DNA of 32,063 nucleotides from Spirochaetaceae bacterium (lineage in GTDB: Bacteria; Spirochaetota; Spirochaetia; Treponematales; Rectinemataceae). A model generated the notes under the pieces. The model did no database searches. It was not told the DNA's origin and saw only the letters and a program-made list of their open reading frames with translations. The position numbers were made by a program, and so were the translations under genes. The DNA is taken from contig JANXYQ010000104.1 in NCBI GenBank assembly GCA_025355995.1, positions 1 to 32,063 on the forward strand, given 5' to 3'. Shown here piece after piece: positions 2,380 through 31,276 of the stretch (positions are counted from its first letter, which is position 1; each line of letters begins with the position of its first letter).

Positions 2380-2985
2380 ACGTTCGTACAAAGCGGCCGG
2401 ATAAACGCCCTCTTCACCCTCGCGGCGATATTCCTCTCCGCGGCCTGCGGGGCCCAGGGCCTCGGGCCCGACGCCTCGGGGAACCTGCCCCCTGTGAGCC
2501 AGCCTCCCTGGCCCGCAGCGATCCCGGGCTATACCGAGCTCGACCCCGACACGGGGCTGCACATGACGGGCCGCCCGCAGCGCATCGAGCTAGCGAGCTA
2601 TAGGCTGAAGGTTACGGGGAAGGTGGACCGGCCGCTCAGCCTGAGCTTCGACCAGCTCCGCCGCCTGCCCCGCCTCTCATCCAAGCCGGCCCTGATCTGC
2701 CAGGGCTATTTCGAGGACTACGCCGCTTGGGCCGGCGCGTCGCTGGCGGCTATCCTCGACGCCGCGAAGCTCCGCCCCGACGCGAAGGAGGTCGACCTCG
2801 TCAGCGCGGACGAGTACTCGACCTATTTGAGCCTGGCCGAGGCCCGTTCGCCCGACGCCTACCTCGCCTACGAGCTGGAGGGCAAGCCCCTGCCGGTGCT
2901 CCACGGCTTTCCCTTGCGGGCCGTCTTCCCCGGCCTGCTCGGCAACAAATGGGCGAAATGGATCGTCGAGATCAGGGTGAAGTAG
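2380..2985 (+). CDS. Small exported molybdopterin-binding-domain protein, possible ACG start
   Basis: The protein of about 201 residues matches the oxidoreductase molybdopterin-binding domain of the sulfite oxidase/MsrP class (PF00174-like). It has Cys near residue 107 in LICQGYFED (the position that ligates molybdenum in the family), a WAGASLAAIL segment, and the closing pattern GFPLRAVFPG...KWAKWIVEI. It lacks the extra dimerisation domain of sulfite oxidases. The N-terminus looks like a lipoprotein signal peptide: Arg, a hydrophobic run, then LSAAC with a relaxed lipobox. No ATG, GTG or TTG occurs in frame before the signal. An AGGAGG at 2368-2373 lies 6 bases before an ACG codon at 2380, which would give exactly a signal peptide, so ACG is used here provisionally. 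A one-base sequencing error or a frameshift is the main alternative. Location is probably outside the cytoplasm. The substrate is unknown. Confidence 0.7.
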   Translation, partial: TFVQSGRINALFTLAAIFLSAACGAQGLGPDASGNLPPVSQPPWPAAIPGYTELDPDTGLHMTGRPQRIELASYRLKVTGKVDRPLSLSFDQLRRLPRLSSKPALICQGYFEDYAAWAGASLAAILDAAKLRPDAKEVDLVSADEYSTYLSLAEARSPDAYLAYELEGKPLPVLHGFPLRAVFPGLLGNKWAKWIVEIRVK

Positions 2986-2995
2986 GCTCGCATGA

Positions 2996-3025
2996 TTGGC
3001 GGAGCGCCGTCCCCTCGTCTATAGT
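2996..3025 (+). promoter_or_regulatory. Putative sigma-70-type promoter for the sigma-factor gene
   Basis: TTGGCG (2996-3001) and TATAGT (3020-3025) are separated by 18 bases, matching the -35 and -10 consensus at 4/6 and 5/6 positions. A start of transcription about 7 bases downstream would fall around 3032, only a few bases before the ATG at 3035. The mRNA would then be nearly leaderless, which explains the lack of a Shine-Dalgarno sequence there. Confidence 0.4.
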
Positions 3026-3034
3026 GCTCCTGCG

Positions 3035-3724
3035 ATGACCAGCCTTGGGCTTTTCGATCGAATTCTCCTAGCCTCCGCCCTGGCCTCGATGGGCGACGAG
3101 GGCGAGGAGGCCTTCAGGCGATCGATGGTCGAGCAGCATCACTACCTGCTGGCCCTCCTCAGGTACAAGACCAACGACGACGGCCTGGCCGAGGACCTCC
3201 TCCAGGAGACCTACCTCTCCTTCCTGGCCTCGCGTCCCGATCGTCGCCGCTTCGCCGACGCGGCCGGGCTCAGGAACTATCTTACGACCATAGCCCTCAA
3301 CAAGCTCCGCGACCATTGGCGCAGGGAGGGCGGGACCCGTCGTCGACAGGCGGCCTTCCGCAGCCGCGAGGAGGCGGACGCCTGGCTCGAAAGCCTGCCC
3401 TCCGCGCAAGGCGATCCCGCGGGAGCGGCGCTCGACGAGGAGGAGGCCAAGCGCGTCGAACGGACCGTCGCCCTGGCCATGGAACGCCTGCCGGAGCGCC
3501 GGAGGCTCGCGCTCGAGCTGAAATTCGCGAAGAACCTCGACAACGGGGAGATCGCGGCGAAGCTGGGCCTGGGAATCAAGGCGGTCGAGTCCCTGCTATT
3601 CCGCGCCAAGGCTCAGTTCAGGAAAGAATTCGCGATCTTGGCTGCCGAAGAGAATGAATCGGTCTACGGCTGCGTTGATTACGAAAGGGACGGAGGACAT
3701 GGCCCGCAAAAAACCACTCGATGA
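3035..3724 (+). CDS. ECF-type RNA polymerase sigma factor
   Basis: This 229-residue protein has the two-domain layout of an extracytoplasmic-function sigma factor. Region 2 runs from about residue 30 to 105 (LAEDLLQETYLSFL, then LRNYLTTIALNKLRDHWRR, the -10 recognition and DNA-melting part). Region 4 is near residues 150-210 (ERLPERRRLALELKF, then NGEIAAKLGLGIKAVESLLFRAK, the -35 helix-turn-helix). ATG 3035 is preferred over TTG 2996, because 2996 coincides with the likely -35 box and ATG 3035 gives a usual ECF N-terminus. The next gene begins inside its 3' end (26-base overlap), an arrangement common for sigma/anti-sigma pairs. It probably directs transcription of envelope genes in response to the FecR-like membrane protein downstream. 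The regulon is unknown. Confidence 0.87.
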   Translation: MTSLGLFDRILLASALASMGDEGEEAFRRSMVEQHHYLLALLRYKTNDDGLAEDLLQETYLSFLASRPDRRRFADAAGLRNYLTTIALNKLRDHWRREGGTRRRQAAFRSREEADAWLESLPSAQGDPAGAALDEEEAKRVERTVALAMERLPERRRLALELKFAKNLDNGEIAAKLGLGIKAVESLLFRAKAQFRKEFAILAAEENESVYGCVDYERDGGHGPQKTTR

Positions 3725-5390
3725 CGCCAGCCTCGGCATCCTCCTCAAGGGCTATCGGCGCCCAAGCCTGGGCGCCGAGGCGCTGGGCCGCATTCTGTCC
3801 GGCGCCGCCGCGCCACCGGCCCAGGCCGGGCGGAGGCGCGCGATAGGCGGCTGGGCCTGGGCCTCGATGGCCGCTGGGCTGGCGATCGCGACGGGCCTGG
3901 GCGCCCTGGCCTATCTGCGGCTAGGCGAGCTTCCCTCGCCGGTGGCCGTCCTAGGGGATCGGCTGCCCGAATCGACCATGACGAGAGGAGGCTCGATCAA
4001 GGCCGAGGCCGAGCCGCTGAGGCTGCGCAGCGCCTCCGAAACCCTGGTGCTCGAGGCGGGCGGCCGATTGCGAATCGACTCCGATCCTTGGAGAAGGCTC
4101 CGCGGCGCTTCGGGGAACAGATACTACCTAGACAGCGGCAAAGTCTATATCGAGCACGCCGCCCTCCCGGGGCGAGGCGATTTTTCCCTGGTCATCCCCT
4201 GGGGAACGATCAGCCCGCTTGGCACGATCCTGAGCTGCGAGGTCGCGCAGGGGCGAGCGGACCTGATCTGCCTGGACGGGAAGCTGCGCTTCGTCGCCTC
4301 CGGCCGACGCGTATACGACATCAACGCGGGCATGGTCTTGAGCCTGCGCGACGACGGCAGGAGGATCACCGTCGAACCGGAGACGCGGTCGCCTGCGGCG
4401 CTCGGCCAGTCGCCTTCATTGACGAGGGCGATCCCGGCTCCAGCCGCACCGAAATCGAAGGACGCGTTGGCGAAGGCCTGGTCGCGGGACCTGGGGGAGT
4501 GGCCCCAAGAGGTCTACGTCGAAGGGCCCTGGGCGATCGTGATCTCCACGGGCGAGATCCAAGTCCTGGATAGGTCCGACGGCGCCTCGATCGCCCGAAT
4601 GGGGCTACCCAAGCCGCTCGGCACCTATGCCGTGAGCGGCGACAGCCTGATCGTATACGCCTCTGCCGGGCTCCGAAGGCTGAGCCTGCCCAAGCTCGAC
4701 GAAGTCTGGTCTACGCCGACGGGCAACCTCGCCTTCACCTCCTTCAGTCTGGCGGACGGGAAAGTGTTCTTGCCCTCCGCGGAGGGGAGGCTATACATCC
4801 ACGACCTGGCCAGCGGCCGGCTCATCGACGGCATAGACGCCGGCATCGGTCTCTACGGCAAGCCGCTGGTCGCCGGAGGCAGGATCATCGTCAGCGGCCT
4901 CGATCGGCGCCTGAGGGCCTTCGACGAAGGCGATCACCGGAAGCTTTGGGAATACCTGTCCGATGAGGGGTTGGTGAACGACGAGCCTCGGGCCCTGGGA
5001 AATGCCATCGTCGACTATACGAAGGACGGAAGCCTATTCGCCCTCGACGCGAGGACGGGAGAGCTCAGGTGGAAGACGGCTCCCGGCTCGGCGGTGGCGC
5101 AGGCCCCGCTGAACTGGGCCTCGCGCCTGGTCTATCGCGATGCGCGGGGGGCGCGGAGCGTGACGGCCGAGGGGATAGTGGCGGAGATCGCGGGAGGCGA
5201 AACCGGCTTCGGCCTGGGCGGCGACGCGAGCCTCTATCTAGCCGGACCCCTCGGCATCGAACGCCTCGGCCCGACAGGCGAGAGGGTGCGGCTAGGCGAT
5301 ATGCCGACCCTCCTGCTCCGCGTCGGCAATGGGGCGATCGCGACTGTCGACGCCGCCGCGCGCCTCTCTCTCTATCGCGTCGGCGAGTGA
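3699..5390 (+). CDS. Membrane FecR-like protein with PQQ-type beta-propeller, probable sigma regulator
   Basis: This 563-residue protein has a basic cytoplasmic N-terminus, one membrane segment at about residues 48-70 (ASMAAGLAIATGLGALAYL), a FecR-like domain at roughly 100-220 (YYLDSGKVYIEH, GTILSCEV, LDGKLRFVASGRRV), and from about 275 to the end a PQQ-like propeller. Propeller repeats include GSLFALDARTGELRWKTAPG, GRLYIHDLASGRLI and IQVLDRSDGASIARM. FecR proteins sense an outer signal and control an adjacent ECF sigma factor, so anti-sigma/sensor function for the product of 3035-3724 is inferred from order and overlap. The short N-terminal cytoplasmic part has no clear zinc-type anti-sigma motif. 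The start is uncertain: ATG 3699 gives a natural N-terminus (MARKKPLDD), with ATG 3654 in the same frame as the alternative. FecR fused to a propeller is an unusual architecture. Confidence 0.75.
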   Translation: MARKKPLDDASLGILLKGYRRPSLGAEALGRILSGAAAPPAQAGRRRAIGGWAWASMAAGLAIATGLGALAYLRLGELPSPVAVLGDRLPESTMTRGGSIKAEAEPLRLRSASETLVLEAGGRLRIDSDPWRRLRGASGNRYYLDSGKVYIEHAALPGRGDFSLVIPWGTISPLGTILSCEVAQGRADLICLDGKLRFVASGRRVYDINAGMVLSLRDDGRRITVEPETRSPAALGQSPSLTRAIPAPAAPKSKDALAKAWSRDLGEWPQEVYVEGPWAIVISTGEIQVLDRSDGASIARMGLPKPLGTYAVSGDSLIVYASAGLRRLSLPKLDEVWSTPTGNLAFTSFSLADGKVFLPSAEGRLYIHDLASGRLIDGIDAGIGLYGKPLVAGGRIIVSGLDRRLRAFDEGDHRKLWEYLSDEGLVNDEPRALGNAIVDYTKDGSLFALDARTGELRWKTAPGSAVAQAPLNWASRLVYRDARGARSVTAEGIVAEIAGGETGFGLGGDASLYLAGPLGIERLGPTGERVRLGDMPTLLLRVGNGAIATVDAAARLSLYRVGE

Positions 5391-9522: not shown

Positions 9523-11804
9523 AGCCGACCAAGGAATCCGAGCTCAACCTGAGCGGAGCCACTCGCTATCTGGACGACCTGCCGGCTACGGAGGGCATGC
9601 TCTACGGCGTTCCGCTGACGAGCCCCTGCGCGAGGGGACTGCTCAGGGGAATCGACGCCTCCGCGGCCCTGGCCCTGGACGCTTCCGTCAGCGTATTGAC
9701 GGCCTCCGACATCCCCGGGGAAAACCAGCTCGGCGAGGCGGTCAGCGACGAGAGCCTCCTCGTGGATGGCGAGTGGAGCTACCTGGGGCAGTGCCTGGCC
9801 CTGGCCCTCGCGGCCACGCCGAGCCTGGCGCGGAAGGCCGCCGCCCTCGTGAGGATCGTCTACGACGAGCTCGAGGCCGTGACCGACGCGCGGGCGGCCG
9901 CCGAGTCGGGCAGCTTCATACTTCCCTCGCGCACGATGAGGTCCGGCGATCCCGCCTCGGCCTTCTCGCGCTGCGCGATCGTGGTCGAGGGAAGGGTCGA
10001 GTCCGGCGGCCAGGAGCACGTCTACCTCGAGGCCCAGGGAGCCATCGCCGAGAGCCTCGAGGGCGGCCGCGTCCGCGTCGTATCCGGAACCCAGGCTCCC
10101 TCGGGCGTGCAGCGCGCCATAGCGCGGACGCTCGGGCTAGGCATGCACGACGTCGAGGTCGAGGCGAGGCGCCTGGGCGGGGCCTTCGGCGGGAAGGAAG
10201 ACCAGGCGGCTCAATGGGCGGCGCTCGCGGCCCTCGGCGCGGCCAGGACGGGCAAGACGGTCAAGGTCTACCTGAATCGCCGCGAGGACATGAATTGGAC
10301 GGGCAAGCGCCATCCCTACTCGAGCGACTACAAGCTTGGGCTCGACGCCGAGGGGCGGATCCTCGCCTACGAGGCGGACTACTATCAGAACTCCGGAGCC
10401 TGCTGTGACCTCTCGCCCGCCATCCTCTCGCGCACGCTCTTCCACGCGGCGAGCGCCTATCGCATACCCAACCTGCGCGTAACGGGCAGGATGTGCCGGA
10501 CTAACCTCCCGCCCTTCACCGCCTTCCGCGGCTTCGGCGCGCCCCAGGGCGTCTTCGTCATCGAATGCGCCCTCGACGCCGCGGCCCGCGAAGGCGGCTG
10601 GGACCCCGTCGAGCTCAGGCTCAAGAACCTGCTCGCCGAGGGCGACAGCTTCCACTTCGGCCAGCCGGTAGCCGACTGCCGCGCGAGGAGGACCGTCGAC
10701 CGGACCCTCGAGCTCTCGCGCTGGACGGAGCTGCGAGCCGAGATCGATTCGTTCAATTCCGCCCATCGCCTCGTGAAGCGGGGCGCGGCCATCCTCCCCA
10801 TCTGCTTCGGCGTCTCCTTCACCAAGCTCGTGATGAACCAGGGCGGGGCCCTCGTCCACGTCTACGGCGACGGTTCGGTCTCGGTCTCGACCGGGGCGGT
10901 GGAGATGGGCCAACAGGTCGCCCGCAAGATCCAGGTGATCGCCGCGCGGTCCCTCGGCATACCCGAAGGGCTCGTGCGGGTCGAGTCCACGCGGACAGCC
11001 TCGGTCGCCAACACCTACTCCACGGCGGCGAGCACGGGCTCGGATATAAACGGCATGGCCGCGCTGGCCGCCTGCGAGGAGATACGCGGCCGCCTCCTCG
11101 GCCTCGCCGCGCGCATGCTGGGCGCGGACAAGGGCGAGCTGCGCATCGAATCGGGCTTCGTGACCAAGGGCTGCGAGATTACCGAGCTCGCGTGGAAGGA
11201 GCTCGTCGACAAGGCCCACCTCGACCGCATCGACCTGTCAGCCCACGGCTTCTACGCCACGCCCGGGCTCTTCTACGACATGAAGGCCGAGAGGGGCAGT
11301 CCCTTCGCCTATCACGTGTACGGCTGCTCGGCCGTCACGGCGACCCTCGACGCGCTGCGCGGGACCTATCGTTTCGACGAGGCCTTCATCGTCCACGACG
11401 TCGGCGAGAGCATCGACTACGACGTCGACCTGGGACAGGTCGAGGGCGCCTTCGCCCAGGGCCTCGGCTGGGCAGCCCTCGAGGACCTCCGCTACGACGA
11501 GAGGGGCAGGCTCCTGTCCGACACGCTATCGACCTACAAGCTGCCCGACCTCCGCTTCATGCCTTCGGCCGTCAAGATAGAGTTCCTCGAGGGAGCGCCC
11601 AACCCCAAGGCGGTGATGCGCTCGAAGGCGATAGGCGAGCCGCCCCTGCTCTACGGAATAGCGGGATACTTCGCCATATTGGACGCCCTGCGCGCTGTCG
11701 ATAGGACCCATCCCACGAAAGCGCCTAGCTCGGCCCCCTACGCCTATGATCTCCCAATGACGCCCGAGAAGGCCCTCGACTTCATCCAAGGAGTCCGCCG
11801 ATGA
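9519..11804 (+). CDS. xdhB: Xanthine dehydrogenase molybdenum subunit
   Basis: This 761-residue subunit holds the molybdopterin cofactor and hydroxylates hypoxanthine to xanthine and xanthine to urate. Substrate-site residues known from bovine xanthine oxidase are present: Glu227 (GGAFGGKE, bovine Glu802), Arg305 (ILSRTLFH, Arg880), Phe339 (FRGFG, Phe914), Phe434 (FGVSF, Phe1009) and the catalytic base Glu707 (KAIGEPP, Glu1261). The first four are spaced exactly as in the bovine enzyme (78, 34 and 95 residues). GGQEHVYLEAQ and VEMGQQ are further family motifs. This makes a true purine enzyme very likely, rather than a nicotinate or aldehyde hydroxylase. The start is GTG 9519, overlapping the TGA of xdhA as GTGA. 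The preceding subunit provides FeS and FAD. The maturation factor XdhC is not in the window. Confidence 0.95.
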   Translation: MKPTKESELNLSGATRYLDDLPATEGMLYGVPLTSPCARGLLRGIDASAALALDASVSVLTASDIPGENQLGEAVSDESLLVDGEWSYLGQCLALALAATPSLARKAAALVRIVYDELEAVTDARAAAESGSFILPSRTMRSGDPASAFSRCAIVVEGRVESGGQEHVYLEAQGAIAESLEGGRVRVVSGTQAPSGVQRAIARTLGLGMHDVEVEARRLGGAFGGKEDQAAQWAALAALGAARTGKTVKVYLNRREDMNWTGKRHPYSSDYKLGLDAEGRILAYEADYYQNSGACCDLSPAILSRTLFHAASAYRIPNLRVTGRMCRTNLPPFTAFRGFGAPQGVFVIECALDAAAREGGWDPVELRLKNLLAEGDSFHFGQPVADCRARRTVDRTLELSRWTELRAEIDSFNSAHRLVKRGAAILPICFGVSFTKLVMNQGGALVHVYGDGSVSVSTGAVEMGQQVARKIQVIAARSLGIPEGLVRVESTRTASVANTYSTAASTGSDINGMAALAACEEIRGRLLGLAARMLGADKGELRIESGFVTKGCEITELAWKELVDKAHLDRIDLSAHGFYATPGLFYDMKAERGSPFAYHVYGCSAVTATLDALRGTYRFDEAFIVHDVGESIDYDVDLGQVEGAFAQGLGWAALEDLRYDERGRLLSDTLSTYKLPDLRFMPSAVKIEFLEGAPNPKAVMRSKAIGEPPLLYGIAGYFAILDALRAVDRTHPTKAPSSAPYAYDLPMTPEKALDFIQGVRR

Positions 11805-26783: not shown

Positions 26784-27980
26784 ATGGGCGCGAACGAGAT
26801 AAAGAACATCATCGACCGGCTGAAGACGAAAAAAATCGACATGGACGGCAAGGACTTCCTCCTCACCTGGGAGAAGTCGCGGGACGAGATTGAGGCGACC
26901 TTCCTGGTCGCGGACGCCCTGCGCGCGATGCGCGACGCCGGCATCTCCCCGCGCGTGTGGGACTCGGGTATCGCGGTCTCCAACTTCCGCGACAACTCGA
27001 CGAGGACCCGCTTCTCCTACGCCTCGGCCTGCGACCTCCTGGGCCTCTACGTCCAGGACCTCGACGAGGGCAAGAGCCAGATCGCCCACGGCGAGACCGT
27101 GCGGGAAACGGCCAACATGATCAGCTTCCTCACCGAGGCGATTGGCATCCGCGACGACATGTACCTGGGCGAGGGCGACAAGTACCAGAGGGAGGTGGGG
27201 AAAGCCCTTGACGAGGGCGTGGCCTCCGGCGTCCTGCCCTCGCGCCCCACGGTGGTGAACCTCCAGTCAGACATCGACCACCCCACCCAGGCGATGGCCG
27301 ACTTCCTGCACCTCTCCCATTACTACGGCGGCCTCGACAAGCTCAAGGGCAAGAAGATCGCGATGAGCTGGGCCTACTCTCCCTCCTACGGCAAGCCCCT
27401 CTCGGTGCCCCAGGGCATCATCGGGCTGGCGAGCCGACTCGGCATGGAGATAGTCCTCGCCCACCCCGAGGGCTACGACCTCATCCCCGAAATCGTCGAG
27501 CTGGCCGAGCGCCAGGCCAAGGCCTCGGGCGGCGCTTTCAAGCGCGTGCACTCGATGGACGCCGCCTTCCAGGGCGCCGACATCGTGTACCCGAAAAGCT
27601 GGGCTCCCTACGACGTGATGCAGAAGCGCGTCCCCCTCCTCCACGAGGGCAACCAGGCCGGTCTCAAGGAGCTCGAGAAGCAGTGCCTCGCGAACAACGC
27701 CAAGTTCAAGGACTGGGAGTGCACCGAGGCGAGGATGAAGCTGACGAAGGAAGGCAAGGCATTGTACATGCACTGCCTCCCCGCCGACATCACCGATGTC
27801 TCCTGCGAGGCGGGCGAGGTCGCCGCCTCGGTTTTCGACCGCTATCGCGACGACACCTACCGCGAGGCGAGCTACAAGCCCTACGTCATCGCGGCGATGA
27901 TCCTCCTGGGCAAGTCGAAGGACCCGGCGGCGACCCTCGCCGGCCTGCTCAAGAGAAGCTCGGCCCGCAGCGCGATCTGA
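26784..27980 (+). CDS. ygeW: Knotted carbamoyltransferase YgeW
   Basis: This 398-residue aspartate/ornithine-carbamoyltransferase-fold protein compares with about 396 for E. coli YgeW. The carbamoyl-phosphate motif is NSTRTRFSYAS (Ser72 to Arg76), followed by HPTQAMADFLHL near residue 167 and HCLPADI near residue 330, the two other conserved carbamoyltransferase sites. The N-terminal ERATFL-like helix IEATFLVADAL is typical of the knotted branch. GGGAGG lies upstream of the ATG, 19 bases after xdhD. Family members of this branch do not act as normal OTCase or ATCase. In purine-degrading clusters, the proposed role is phosphorolysis of a ureido compound, yielding carbamoyl phosphate for ATP formation. 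A carbamate kinase is not in the window. It is the last intact gene of the operon before the decayed stretch. Confidence 0.93.
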   Translation: MGANEIKNIIDRLKTKKIDMDGKDFLLTWEKSRDEIEATFLVADALRAMRDAGISPRVWDSGIAVSNFRDNSTRTRFSYASACDLLGLYVQDLDEGKSQIAHGETVRETANMISFLTEAIGIRDDMYLGEGDKYQREVGKALDEGVASGVLPSRPTVVNLQSDIDHPTQAMADFLHLSHYYGGLDKLKGKKIAMSWAYSPSYGKPLSVPQGIIGLASRLGMEIVLAHPEGYDLIPEIVELAERQAKASGGAFKRVHSMDAAFQGADIVYPKSWAPYDVMQKRVPLLHEGNQAGLKELEKQCLANNAKFKDWECTEARMKLTKEGKALYMHCLPADITDVSCEAGEVAASVFDRYRDDTYREASYKPYVIAAMILLGKSKDPAATLAGLLKRSSARSAI

Positions 27981-28007: not shown

Positions 28008-28408
28008 ATGGACGAAGCGGAGGCGCGCGACGAGCTCGAGACCAGGTCCGCGGGCTTTCCTTCCGGAGCGACCAGAGCCTGGGCCACCTAACCGAGCTCC
28101 TCGGAATACCGGCGACGGATTCCTGGAGACGGCCATCGCCGCGGGCCGCTGCCTCCTGTCGAGGGACCGCTCGCTCCTGTTCAGGAGGGAAGCCCCGCGC
28201 TCGCACCACGGCATGCTCCACCTGCGGCAGGCCCCTCGAGCCGGTGCCCGCCTCAGAGGCCGAAGCTCTCGTGCCGCCCTTGGTCGCGCTGTGCTACCGG
28301 AATTTCACTCTTTGCCGCTCATGCCGCAAGACCTACTGGAGGGGGGATCACGCCCGCGACAGTGACGCTCTCCTCGAGCGCCTCGAGGGCGGCATGCCGC
28401 GGCGCTAG
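28008..28408 (+). pseudogene. Decayed Mut7-C nuclease-domain gene
   Basis: Recognisable pieces of a Mut7-C (PIN-like RNase with zinc ribbon) protein lie in different frames. One frame gives FRSDQSLGHLTELLGI (usual N-terminal DxxLGRLAxxLRLLG pattern). The next frame gives FLETAIAAGRCLLSRDRSLL (from 28120), the classic acidic/RDR core. The first frame returns with CSTCGRPLEPVP, then LCRSCRKTYWRGDH and the stop at 28408, the zinc ribbon and YWxGxH ending. The usual spacer of about 30-45 residues between the RDR core and the first CxxC is missing, so an internal deletion and two frameshifts have broken the gene. The start is unclear; ATG 28008 is one possibility but its own frame closes early. 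The function is presumably lost. Confidence 0.68.
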
Positions 28409-28423
28409 TGCCCGGCGAAGGCC

Positions 28424-28769
28424 TCAACTCTTCTTTCCCCGGAGCCTGACGAAGGCAACTCCCTCCAAGCCGTCCCTGACCAGGGCCGGGCCGCGAGGGG
28501 GGCGGCGGCATAGCCGCAGCCGGCGCCCACCTAGAGCAGGCGCAGGCCGGGAGCGAGCTCGAGGGTGTCGAGCAGGCCCGCCCGGGACCGATGGGGACCG
28601 GCGTGTCGCGATAGGCTTCGCCCCGCGCATCGGCCGGCAGAAAGGAGGCCCCGTCGATGGCGCGCATGGCCTCCAGCACGCGGACATCCGGCGAACCACT
28701 CCCGAGATAGGAGCCGGCCCTGCGCCTCACGAGCACGACGAGCTCGTCGTCGGTCTCGGGATACCACAT
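28424..28769 (-). pseudogene. pcm: Decayed protein-L-isoaspartate O-methyltransferase gene
   Basis: On the minus strand, ATG at 28769 opens a frame reading DVRVLEAMRAIDGASFLP, then AYRDTPVPIGPGRACSTPS, which is the substrate/cofactor segment of Pcm (repair of isoaspartyl residues in proteins). The frame then shifts to LDTLELAPGLRLL, a TAG replaces the Glu expected in the SAM-binding motif, and VGAGCGYAAA continues. About 100 residues are missing. A third frame holds the family's C-terminal end ALVRDGLEGVAFVRLRG, finishing at TGA 28426-28424. A deletion, a nonsense codon and frameshifts make a functional product impossible. It lies tail to tail with the broken Mut7-C gene, so both are part of one decayed block. 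Confidence 0.72.
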
Positions 28770-28917
28770 CGATGGCAAGATGGTAGCACCTCCCCCGGCG
28801 CCATGGTGCAGGAAGCGCGCGGAACGGGAGGGAGACGGCCGGGATTGCCATTCCGCAACTTTTTTTCTCCGTGGACACACCCGAAACCCGCCCCGTCCGT
28901 CGATATACCTGAATAAC

Positions 28918-29340
28918 ATGGAAGACGACGAGCGAAATACGACCGGCGAATCTCGTCGACGGCTCGAGGAAGCCTACGTCAGCGAGGGGCCGCGCCTCAT
29001 TGCCAGGCTCCGCGCCAAGGGGCGTAGCTTCGAAGAGGCCGAGGACTTCGTGCACGATATCTATTCCGAAGTCATGGGACGGATGTCCCTGATCGCGCGG
29101 ATCGTCAACCTGCCCGCCTGGATCAACTCGCTCTTCACCAGGCGCCTCATCGACGCCTGGCGCCACGAGCGGGTGCGCCGGGCCGCGGGCGAGGCCGAAC
29201 TGGCCGAGGGAATCCTCGAGGAGGTCATCTCCGGCATCGGCCTCGACCCCCAGGACGAGCTCGTTCGATCGAACCTCGTCGACGCGCTGAACTCGGCCCT
29301 TCGCGCCCTGCCCGATGCCCAGCGCGAGGGCGACCCGGAG
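28918..29340 (+). pseudogene. Truncated sigma-70-family factor lacking region 4
   Basis: From ATG 28918 the protein has an ECF-like sigma region 2 (EEAEDFVHDIYSEVMGRM, LPAWINSLFTRRLIDAWRHERVRR) and the linker up to SALRALPDAQRE, the usual entry of region 4. The -35-binding helix-turn-helix that should follow is missing; the sequence runs instead into GDPEEEAN and the start of the small membrane protein gene at 29351. No stop occurs in this frame, so the frame passes through the next gene and joins the DUF6326 gene in phase, ending at 30072. A deletion that removed region 4 is the simplest explanation. The end given here is the apparent junction, not a stop codon. A region-2-only sigma would not be expected to work normally. 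Confidence 0.65.
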
Positions 29341-29350
29341 GAGGAAGCAA

Positions 29351-29710
29351 ATGTCCGAGAACAGTCGCGATTTCGAGGCCTGGTGGAGCGACCAGAGCCT
29401 GCCCGTCAAGATCCTGGTGGTGATCGGCTTTGCCATACTGGGATTCGGGATTCTCGCCCTCTTCGGCTGGGCGGTGATGCTCCTGTGGAACTGGATCGTA
29501 CCGGAGACCTTCGGGCTCAAGCCCCTGACCTACTGGAAAGCCTGGGGCCTCTTCCTGCTGTGCTCCATCCTCTTCAAAGGCATGAGCACCAGCTCGAACG
29601 GCTCAGGCAAGCGGGCCGACCGCAAGCGCAAGGAGCAGTTGCGGAGCTACATGAAAGGCGCGAGCGATCAGGGCGAAGGCTCCGGCAATGCCCCCGAGGC
29701 CCGGCCATGA
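29351..29710 (+). CDS. Small two-helix membrane protein linked to sigma factor
   Basis: This 119-residue protein has a short acidic start (MSENSRDFEAWWSDQSL), a membrane segment at about residues 19-45 (ILVVIGFAILGFGILALFGW), a second hydrophobic segment at about 60-80 (YWKAWGLFLLCSILF), and a basic tail. I recall similar proteins downstream of ECF sigma genes in other bacteria, where they may act as membrane anchors or anti-sigma factors; this is context only. A strong GGAGGAGG lies 7-8 bases before the ATG. Its TGA overlaps the next ATG (ATGA). The frame of the truncated sigma gene runs through it in another phase. It appears intact. Confidence 0.75.
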   Translation: MSENSRDFEAWWSDQSLPVKILVVIGFAILGFGILALFGWAVMLLWNWIVPETFGLKPLTYWKAWGLFLLCSILFKGMSTSSNGSGKRADRKRKEQLRSYMKGASDQGEGSGNAPEARP

Positions 29711-30072
29711 AAGACACAAAGGCTACCCTTTCCTCCTTATGGATCTTCGCGATGTTCAACTACCTGTACGCCGATGTCATGGGGCTGATGGATCCCGCCC
29801 TGCAGCGGGCCATCGCCGCGGGCCAGGCATTGGCGGCGACCATCAACGAGGGATTCCTCTTCGGAGCGGCGGTCCTCATGGAGACCGCCATCGCGGTGGG
29901 CATCCTCCAGACCCTGGCCGTGGCAGGATCGCTCTTCGTCGGCAAGCCCGTTTCGTTTTACATCTTCTTCTCGGTCCTGGAGATCGCCTGCACCTGCTAC
30001 ATCGTCTGGCGGGCCTGGACCTGGAAAAGCGATACCGCGGCCGCAGGCCCGGCCCAAGGCGCTGCCGCATGA
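29707..30072 (+). CDS. DUF6326-family membrane protein, apparently shortened
   Basis: This 121-residue protein begins MKDTKATLSSLWIFAMFNYL and contains NEGFLFGAAVLMETAIAVGIL and YIFFSVLEIACTCYIVWRAW, the pattern of DUF6326 membrane proteins, probably with four membrane helices in full-length members. The usual basic loop with an NRWANI-like motif, expected between the AVGIL and AVAGSLFV helices, is absent, so around 16-20 residues seem to have been lost in frame. The ATG overlaps the preceding TGA (ATGA) and its own TGA overlaps the DUF4386 gene. The function is unknown. I am moderately confident of the family and less so of the deletion, which rests on memory of the family pattern. Confidence 0.72.
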   Translation: MKDTKATLSSLWIFAMFNYLYADVMGLMDPALQRAIAAGQALAATINEGFLFGAAVLMETAIAVGILQTLAVAGSLFVGKPVSFYIFFSVLEIACTCYIVWRAWTWKSDTAAAGPAQGAAA

Positions 30073-30785
30073 GCGCCGCCGCGATCGCCCCGGGAGGGGA
30101 AACCATCCCGAGGAGCTTGGCGAAGAAGGCGGGTGTCTGGTACGCCGCGGTAGCCGTCACGTCGATGTTCGGCATGATCTTCGTAGACCATCGACTCTAC
30201 GTCGAGGGAAACGCAGCCGCCACAGCCGCGGCGATCCTGGCGAACGAACGGCTCTATCGCATCGGCATGGCTCTCGTTCTCGCGGGACGGGCGGCCCAGG
30301 TACCCCTTGTCCTGAATCTCTATCGCCTATTCAAATCGACGAGCAAGGAATTGGCTAGAACGATGCTCGCCCTCGAGCTCGTGATGGTCCCCATCGCCTT
30401 CCTCGACATGCTCTGCAAGTTCGCTCCCCTGGTTCTCCTGAAGGGCAGCCCGCTCGCGGCAGTCTTCACTCCCGCCCAACTGCAGGCGCTCTCGCTTCTG
30501 TCCCTCGACCTGTACCAAGACGGCATCGTCATCGCCGGCGTCTTCTGGGGCCTCTGGCTTCTCCCCTTGGGACTCCTTGTCTGGAAGTCAGGACTCTTCC
30601 CCAGGATCTTCGGAGTCCTGCTGCTGATTGGCTTCGCGAGCTACATGGTCGACAGCCTCTGCGCCTTCGTCCTCCCGGAGGCCAGGCAGGCCCTCTCGCC
30701 CTTCGTCGTCGCAGGAATGAGCGTCGCGGAATTGCCCTTCGTCCTCTGGCTCCTCATCATGGGCGCCCGGGAAATGGCGAAATGA
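30069..30785 (+). CDS. DUF4386-family integral membrane protein
   Basis: This 238-residue protein has about six hydrophobic segments: AGVWYAAVAVTSMFGMIFV, MALVLAGRAAQVPLVLNL, MLALELVMVPIAFLDML, GIVIAGVFWGLWLLPLGLLV, IFGVLLLIGFASYMV and MSVAELPFVLWLLIMG. The segment order, the GNAAATAAAILANERLYRIG loop and the SGLFPRIFGVLLL motif fit DUF4386. No function has been assigned to the family as far as I know. It overlaps its neighbours at both ends by ATGA, so it belongs to the same transcript as the DUF6326 and flavodoxin genes. Confidence 0.82.
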   Translation: MSAAAIAPGGETIPRSLAKKAGVWYAAVAVTSMFGMIFVDHRLYVEGNAAATAAAILANERLYRIGMALVLAGRAAQVPLVLNLYRLFKSTSKELARTMLALELVMVPIAFLDMLCKFAPLVLLKGSPLAAVFTPAQLQALSLLSLDLYQDGIVIAGVFWGLWLLPLGLLVWKSGLFPRIFGVLLLIGFASYMVDSLCAFVLPEARQALSPFVVAGMSVAELPFVLWLLIMGAREMAK

Positions 30786-31276
30786 GCGAGGAGGCCCGTG
30801 CGCTCGTCATCGTCGCCTCCTATCACCACCTGAACACCGAGAGGCTCGCGTGCGCTATCGCGGGCATCCTCGGGGCCGAAGTCAGGGGACCCGGCGAGGT
30901 CGCACCTGACGAACTGGGGGGCTTCGGCATCGTGGGTTTCGGCTCGGGCATCTACGACGCGAAGCACCATGAGAGCCTGCTGCGCCTGGCCGCGACCCTG
31001 CCTCCCGCCCAGGGAAGGAAGGCCTTCATCTTCTCGACGAACGGAATGCCGATCGCCGTGGCCGGCAAAGCCTTGGTGGCGGGCAACTCGGCGAACAGCC
31101 ACGGCGAGCTTCGCGGGAGGCTCGTCACCGCGGGCTACGAGATCGTCGGAGAGTTCGGCTGCGCGGGCTTCAACACGAACAGCTTCCTGAAGCTCTTCGG
31201 AGGCATCAACAAGGGAAGGCCAAATGACGAGGACCTCGAGGACGCGAAGGAATTCGCGCGGCGCCTACTCAATTGA
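30782..31276 (+). CDS. Flavodoxin-family protein
   Basis: This 164-residue cytoplasmic protein has a flavodoxin-like Rossmann fold. The first strand and FMN phosphate loop are VIVASYHHLNTERLA, slightly different from the usual SxTGNT pattern. FGIVGFGSGIYDAKHH is the central strand plus the second FMN loop, and RKAFIFSTNG starts the next strand. NANSHGEL-like and GCAGFNTNSF segments near the end match the flavodoxin family seen next to MarR/TetR or DUF4386 genes. It presumably carries electrons with FMN. The ATG overlaps the upstream TGA, and its own TGA overlaps a TTG start of an EFR1-type flavodoxin/ferredoxin gene, so an electron-transfer pair is likely. The partner enzyme is unknown. Confidence 0.83.
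   Translation: MSEEARALVIVASYHHLNTERLACAIAGILGAEVRGPGEVAPDELGGFGIVGFGSGIYDAKHHESLLRLAATLPPAQGRKAFIFSTNGMPIAVAGKALVAGNSANSHGELRGRLVTAGYEIVGEFGCAGFNTNSFLKLFGGINKGRPNDEDLEDAKEFARRLLN

Follow-up and report, generated by a model that had tools for sequence, protein, structure and literature searches.

A zone of about 2.1 kilobases (kb) near the 3' end of contig C136 holds the remnants of four neighbouring genes, for a Mut7-C ribonuclease (RNase)-domain protein, a protein-L-isoaspartate O-methyltransferase-like protein (pcm), a sigma factor and a DUF6326 protein, and our verdict is that this is a real and unusually dense cluster of pseudogenes, ordinary in kind. The window, by which we mean the whole of this 32,063-base pair (bp) contig, is a 100% match to the record of genome G000, a 4.50 Mb draft in 138 contigs that is 95% complete. 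The zone runs from 28,008 to 30,072, with its 3' limit about 2 kb short of the contig end, and each of the four genes has one or more losses of 28 to about 300 letters.

We put at about 0.72 the probability that accessory genes in the zone are in neutral decay through deletions between short direct repeats. On this view the accessory genes at 28.0-30.1 kb would have been recently inactivated and would be in the course of being worn down by small deletions, most likely arising during replication, where direct repeats of about 5-7 bp allow slippage or recombination, and accompanied by occasional substitutions, while selection would maintain the upstream purine operon and the downstream genes. 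The missing segments, the frame changes, the stop codon, the fuller homologues of relatives and an eroded gene on a second contig are observed; we infer that the living genome carries the deletions, that they arose by slippage at short repeats, and that selection on the eroded genes had ceased. A preliminary description of the window had reported four neighbouring genes each with an internal segment missing; all four losses are confirmed, but there are several in Mut7-C and pcm, and a fifth gene in the zone is undamaged.

The remnants and their homologues

The genes of the zone are as follows.

28008-28408, plus strand: remnant of the Mut7-C RNase-domain gene, with about three deletions and two frame changes, adjoining ygeW as in G005
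28769-28424, minus strand: pcm remnant, with two deletions and an in-frame TAG
28918-29328, plus strand: sigma-factor gene remnant, with region 2 kept and region 4 and the stop lost, by alignment to G001
29329-29350, plus strand: junction at which the sigma remnant runs into the ribosome-binding region of the following gene, by DNA comparison with G001 and G048
29351-29710, plus strand: small membrane-protein gene of 119 amino acids (aa), with full-length homology to G001 (107 aa) and G048; this is the fifth gene, and it is not shortened
29707-30072, plus strand: DUF6326 gene, 16-20 codons shorter through an in-frame loss

The gene order of relative G005 is syntenic with the window, with ygeW followed by Mut7-C (267 aa) and then a convergent pcm (261 aa). 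In Pfam searches the G005 Mut7-C protein matches Mut7-C at positions 1-142 of 146 and also Ub-Mut7C, and its pcm protein matches PCMT. Frame-tolerant alignment to the 267-aa protein gives losses in the window Mut7-C gene of 26 aa near the N-terminus, about 71 aa and about 28-31 aa (about 78, about 210 and 85-95 bp), with frame shifts at the second and third, and a 60-residue block near the C-terminal end can still be aligned (24 of 60 identical). In the case of pcm the same kind of alignment places a 28-bp loss after '...RACS' and one of about 300 bp after 'GYAA(A)', and there is an in-frame TAG at 28533-28531 where relatives carry Glu (GLRLL*VGAGCGYAA against GLRVLEIGAGSGYAA).

The sigma-factor gene agrees with that of the same-genus relative G001 as far as about 29328 (...AQRE) and then enters the leader of the next gene, so that at least 144 bp are lost, the entire 3' end with region 4 and the stop codon. 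The window protein has a match only to Sigma70_r2, which at an E value of 0.0015 falls short of the curated cut-off, whereas the G001 protein has regions 2 and 4. As a consequence of the deletion there is a single open frame of 384 aa at 28918-30072, which covers sigma region 2, passes through the membrane-protein gene out of frame and enters DUF6326 in frame. Were this frame translated as it stands, its product would be a sigma region 2 anchored to a membrane protein and created by deletion, a reading that we consider very improbable. In DUF6326 the loss, by comparison with G003 and G004, is of 16-20 residues near an NRWANI-like stretch; the best stretch of the Pfam match is at profile positions 11-73, and there is a second stretch.

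In the preliminary description the absence of the NRWANI-like loop from DUF6326 is as found here. Mut7-C was said to lack its spacer, but has about three losses; pcm was said to lack about 100 residues, but has losses of 28 and about 300 bp and the TAG; and region 4 of the sigma factor is gone as stated, but as a lost 3' end and not as an internal segment.

Fuller homologues of all four genes are found in relatives (the counts that follow include the window's own genome). Mut7-C is present in 3 of 39 genomes, the other two being G005, where it is full-length, and G004, where it is itself broken. There are pcm-like matches in 21 of 39, with open frames mostly of 217-264 aa. Sigma homologues are present in 12 of 30 genomes, with every listed row open for at least 180 aa (range 180-631 aa); two of these rows belong to further sigma genes of G000, and the value of 453 in the window row is due to the fused open frame. 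DUF6326 is present in 5 of 39 genomes, with homologues that cover most of the profile and fuller copies in G003, G004 and others. The four genes are each present in only part of the relatives searched, and are accessory in this group.

The frame is disrupted in Mut7-C, pcm and sigma, while DUF6326 is shortened in frame and so is not strictly a pseudogene by that standard. DUF6326 is the gene for which one could argue that the short genes are selected, working mini-versions, since its reading frame and its start and stop codons are preserved and an ATGA joins it to the stop of the intact membrane-protein gene as an overlap. However, the Mut7-C and pcm pieces lie in different frames with a stop, the sigma factor is without region 4, and among 392 genomes of the phylum, 10 of which have a DUF6326 match, there is no comparably short copy, the only clearly partial ones besides that of the window being a frame-broken copy on contig C29 of G000 and a weak match below the cut-off in G146. 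Homologues of equally short size, which the preliminary description had named as evidence that would count against loss, were looked for in the relatives searched and not found. We consider selected mini-versions quite improbable.

With regard to G004, its contig C42 (4256-5158) has a Mut7-C gene that is frame-broken and has its C-terminal end replaced by a fragment on the other strand, which by its motifs we take to be from an alkaline phosphatase. The two genomes are alike in having a convergent Mut7-C/pcm pair with Mut7-C broken, and differ in that the G004 pcm is intact and in the replacement of its Mut7-C end.

Eroded genes elsewhere in the genome

A codon-usage frame model applied to 690,536 bases of G000 flagged 28 coding segments, of which 3 are in the 2.1-kb zone, where about 0.08 would be expected from the other 25 (the zone having been picked beforehand in the preliminary description). 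In contrast to the preliminary description, the phenomenon is not local, for a gene on contig C120 is clearly eroded in the same way.

C120 11372-11906, in a 27.7-kb contig: radical SAM gene remnant, retaining both ends, with some 5-6 losses between them and a TAA

Relative to the G018 orthologue (477 aa) the losses are of about 12, 65, 10, 3, 62 and 118 residues, the loss of 3 residues being one that may be normal variation. The orthologues have open frames of 476 aa in G005, 459 aa in G010, 477 aa in G018 and 479 aa in G004. The radical SAM label is read from sequence motifs, as are those of the neighbours, which we take to be a MoaD/ThiS-like open reading frame (ORF) on one side and a convergent ThiF-like ORF on the other.

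We also surveyed the same 690,536 bases with 626 proteins of relatives, which matched 173 distinct places and gave 8 rows. Three places were counted as broken, namely the window pcm, the C29 DUF6326 and a weak case, at L110 18745. The remaining five rows were discarded: two for neighbouring or paralogous window genes, one for an antisense frame, one for the paralogue-like L063 and one that was a duplicate of the C29 row. A looser scan of 966,357 bases flagged many more segments, many of which resemble gene ends or low-complexity proteins. A between-genome count of ragged 3' ends was dropped, as the codon model is unreliable with little training sequence (G001, G002, G005 and G032). Decay is scattered through G000, and the window zone is the densest confirmed cluster in the part surveyed.

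The C29 copy of DUF6326, the second of G000, is at 3499-3902 and has its frame break mid-gene. On contig C19 a HipA-like gene (2596-3133) and an AraC-like gene (10012-10363) each have a frame break and a missing piece.

Junctions, age and the case for decay

Of some 13 junctions, four allowed the lost flanks to be predicted from orthologue residues: two among the 7 of the window, and two in the C120 radical SAM gene. The bases compatible with both sides number at most 6 (TGCTCG) and 6 (ATGCTC) in the window and at most 12 and 11 in C120; blunt deletions simulated with the same scoring gave a mean of 2.2, with a probability of 0.077 for at least 6 and of 0.005 for at least 11. These predicted overlaps are consistent with slippage at short direct repeats. 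No Ku was detected in genome G000, and thus non-homologous end joining need not be invoked. Microhomology had been proposed as a check at each junction, and short repeats would fit the four that were assessed.

A 17-bp exact direct repeat, GGAGCGACCAGAGCCTG (28065-28081 and 29385-29401), was considered as a recombination scar and rejected; both copies encode SDQSL in two unrelated genes, and we therefore take it to be coincidence with codon bias.

The surviving residues have changed little. Where the other sequences are invariant, the pcm remnant has 4 changes in 28 as against 0-4 of 24-28 in intact genes, the sigma remnant 7 in 40 as against 0-4 of 33-37 (the distant G003 has 31 in 64), and the C120 remnant 9 in 58 as against 4-11 of 53-60. 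Any excess of change is at most slight. Since surviving residues are about as conserved as in intact orthologues, it would seem that either the inactivation is recent or the deletions are not real.

It is thus necessary to consider an artefact of assembly or library preparation, in which low coverage or hard GC-rich segments near the contig end were dropped and the flanks mis-joined at chance overlaps. Several points weigh against decay here: four eroded genes in a row, at a distance of 2-4 kb from one end of a 32,063-bp contig in a 138-contig draft, also fit a local sequence-quality problem; mis-joining would likewise give short junction overlaps, and those that we have are a selected set, of resolvable junctions only, and upper bounds derived from degenerate codons; and the conservation of the remnants, which an artefact would also give, is the point where the two are hardest to separate. 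However, the pcm TAG and the C120 TAA are substitutions, not explained by dropped segments, the second eroded gene is 11.4-11.9 kb into a 27.7-kb contig, there are undamaged genes around the zone and one within it, and it is accessory genes that are damaged. Of these points the nonsense codon and the last weigh mildly, and it is on the stop codons, the undamaged genes and the accessory targets together that we prefer real decay and regard an artefact as unlikely.

Among known systems, Salmonella pseudogenes under deletional bias (PMC2916853) resemble those of the zone in being accessory genes, affected mainly by deletions with a few nonsense substitutions, that have intact orthologues in relatives. 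However, most Salmonella pseudogenes are described there as having one inactivating mutation, with few shortened by more than 20%, and the window zone is a heavy case by comparison, its genes having suffered more deletions each, and a greater loss of length, than most of those. The many deletions per gene and few substitutions, in the zone and in the C120 gene, could suggest a special deletion-generating process acting on the genome or the zone, be it a mutator state or a targeted system, but deletion bias is presented in the same source as a general bacterial trait, and most of the sequence surveyed, which is part of the genome, is without such clusters. We find such a process most improbable, and nothing indicates a new mechanism.

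Of the two readings offered in the preliminary description, small deletions recurring in a dispensable zone is better supported than a local assembly artefact: the genes have a patchy distribution, short repeats fit the junctions that were assessed, and the in-frame stop adds a substitution to the deletions. It is retained in part, as the erosion is not confined to the zone and one gene there is undamaged. The zone leaves the known mechanism unchanged, and is a clear small example of unused genes being whittled fast by deletions while what remains of them keeps a conserved look. For draft genomes it carries a warning as well, since the matches to pcm, Mut7-C and sigma factor at this locus should not be taken for functional genes.

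Flanking genes

Upstream of the zone is a run of purine and selenium-type genes of which ygeW is the last. The flanking genes were said to be intact, and for ygeW and the DUF4386 gene this is supported by matches to near-whole profiles.

26784-27980, plus strand: ygeW, knotted carbamoyltransferase, intact upstream flank (NCBIfam NF005538, E 4.1e-203, profile 3-394 of 396)
30069-30785, plus strand: DUF4386 gene, intact downstream flank (PF14329, profile 2-210 of 210, E 2.4e-45)
30782-31276, plus strand: flavodoxin-like ORF, undamaged by appearance

When relatives of the DUF4386 protein were sought in the genome contigs, a single distant locus came up, and this result was not used. The ORF at 30782-31276 had no match in Pfam or NCBIfam searches and is presumed from its sequence to be flavodoxin-like; there are similar ORFs in G003 and G004.
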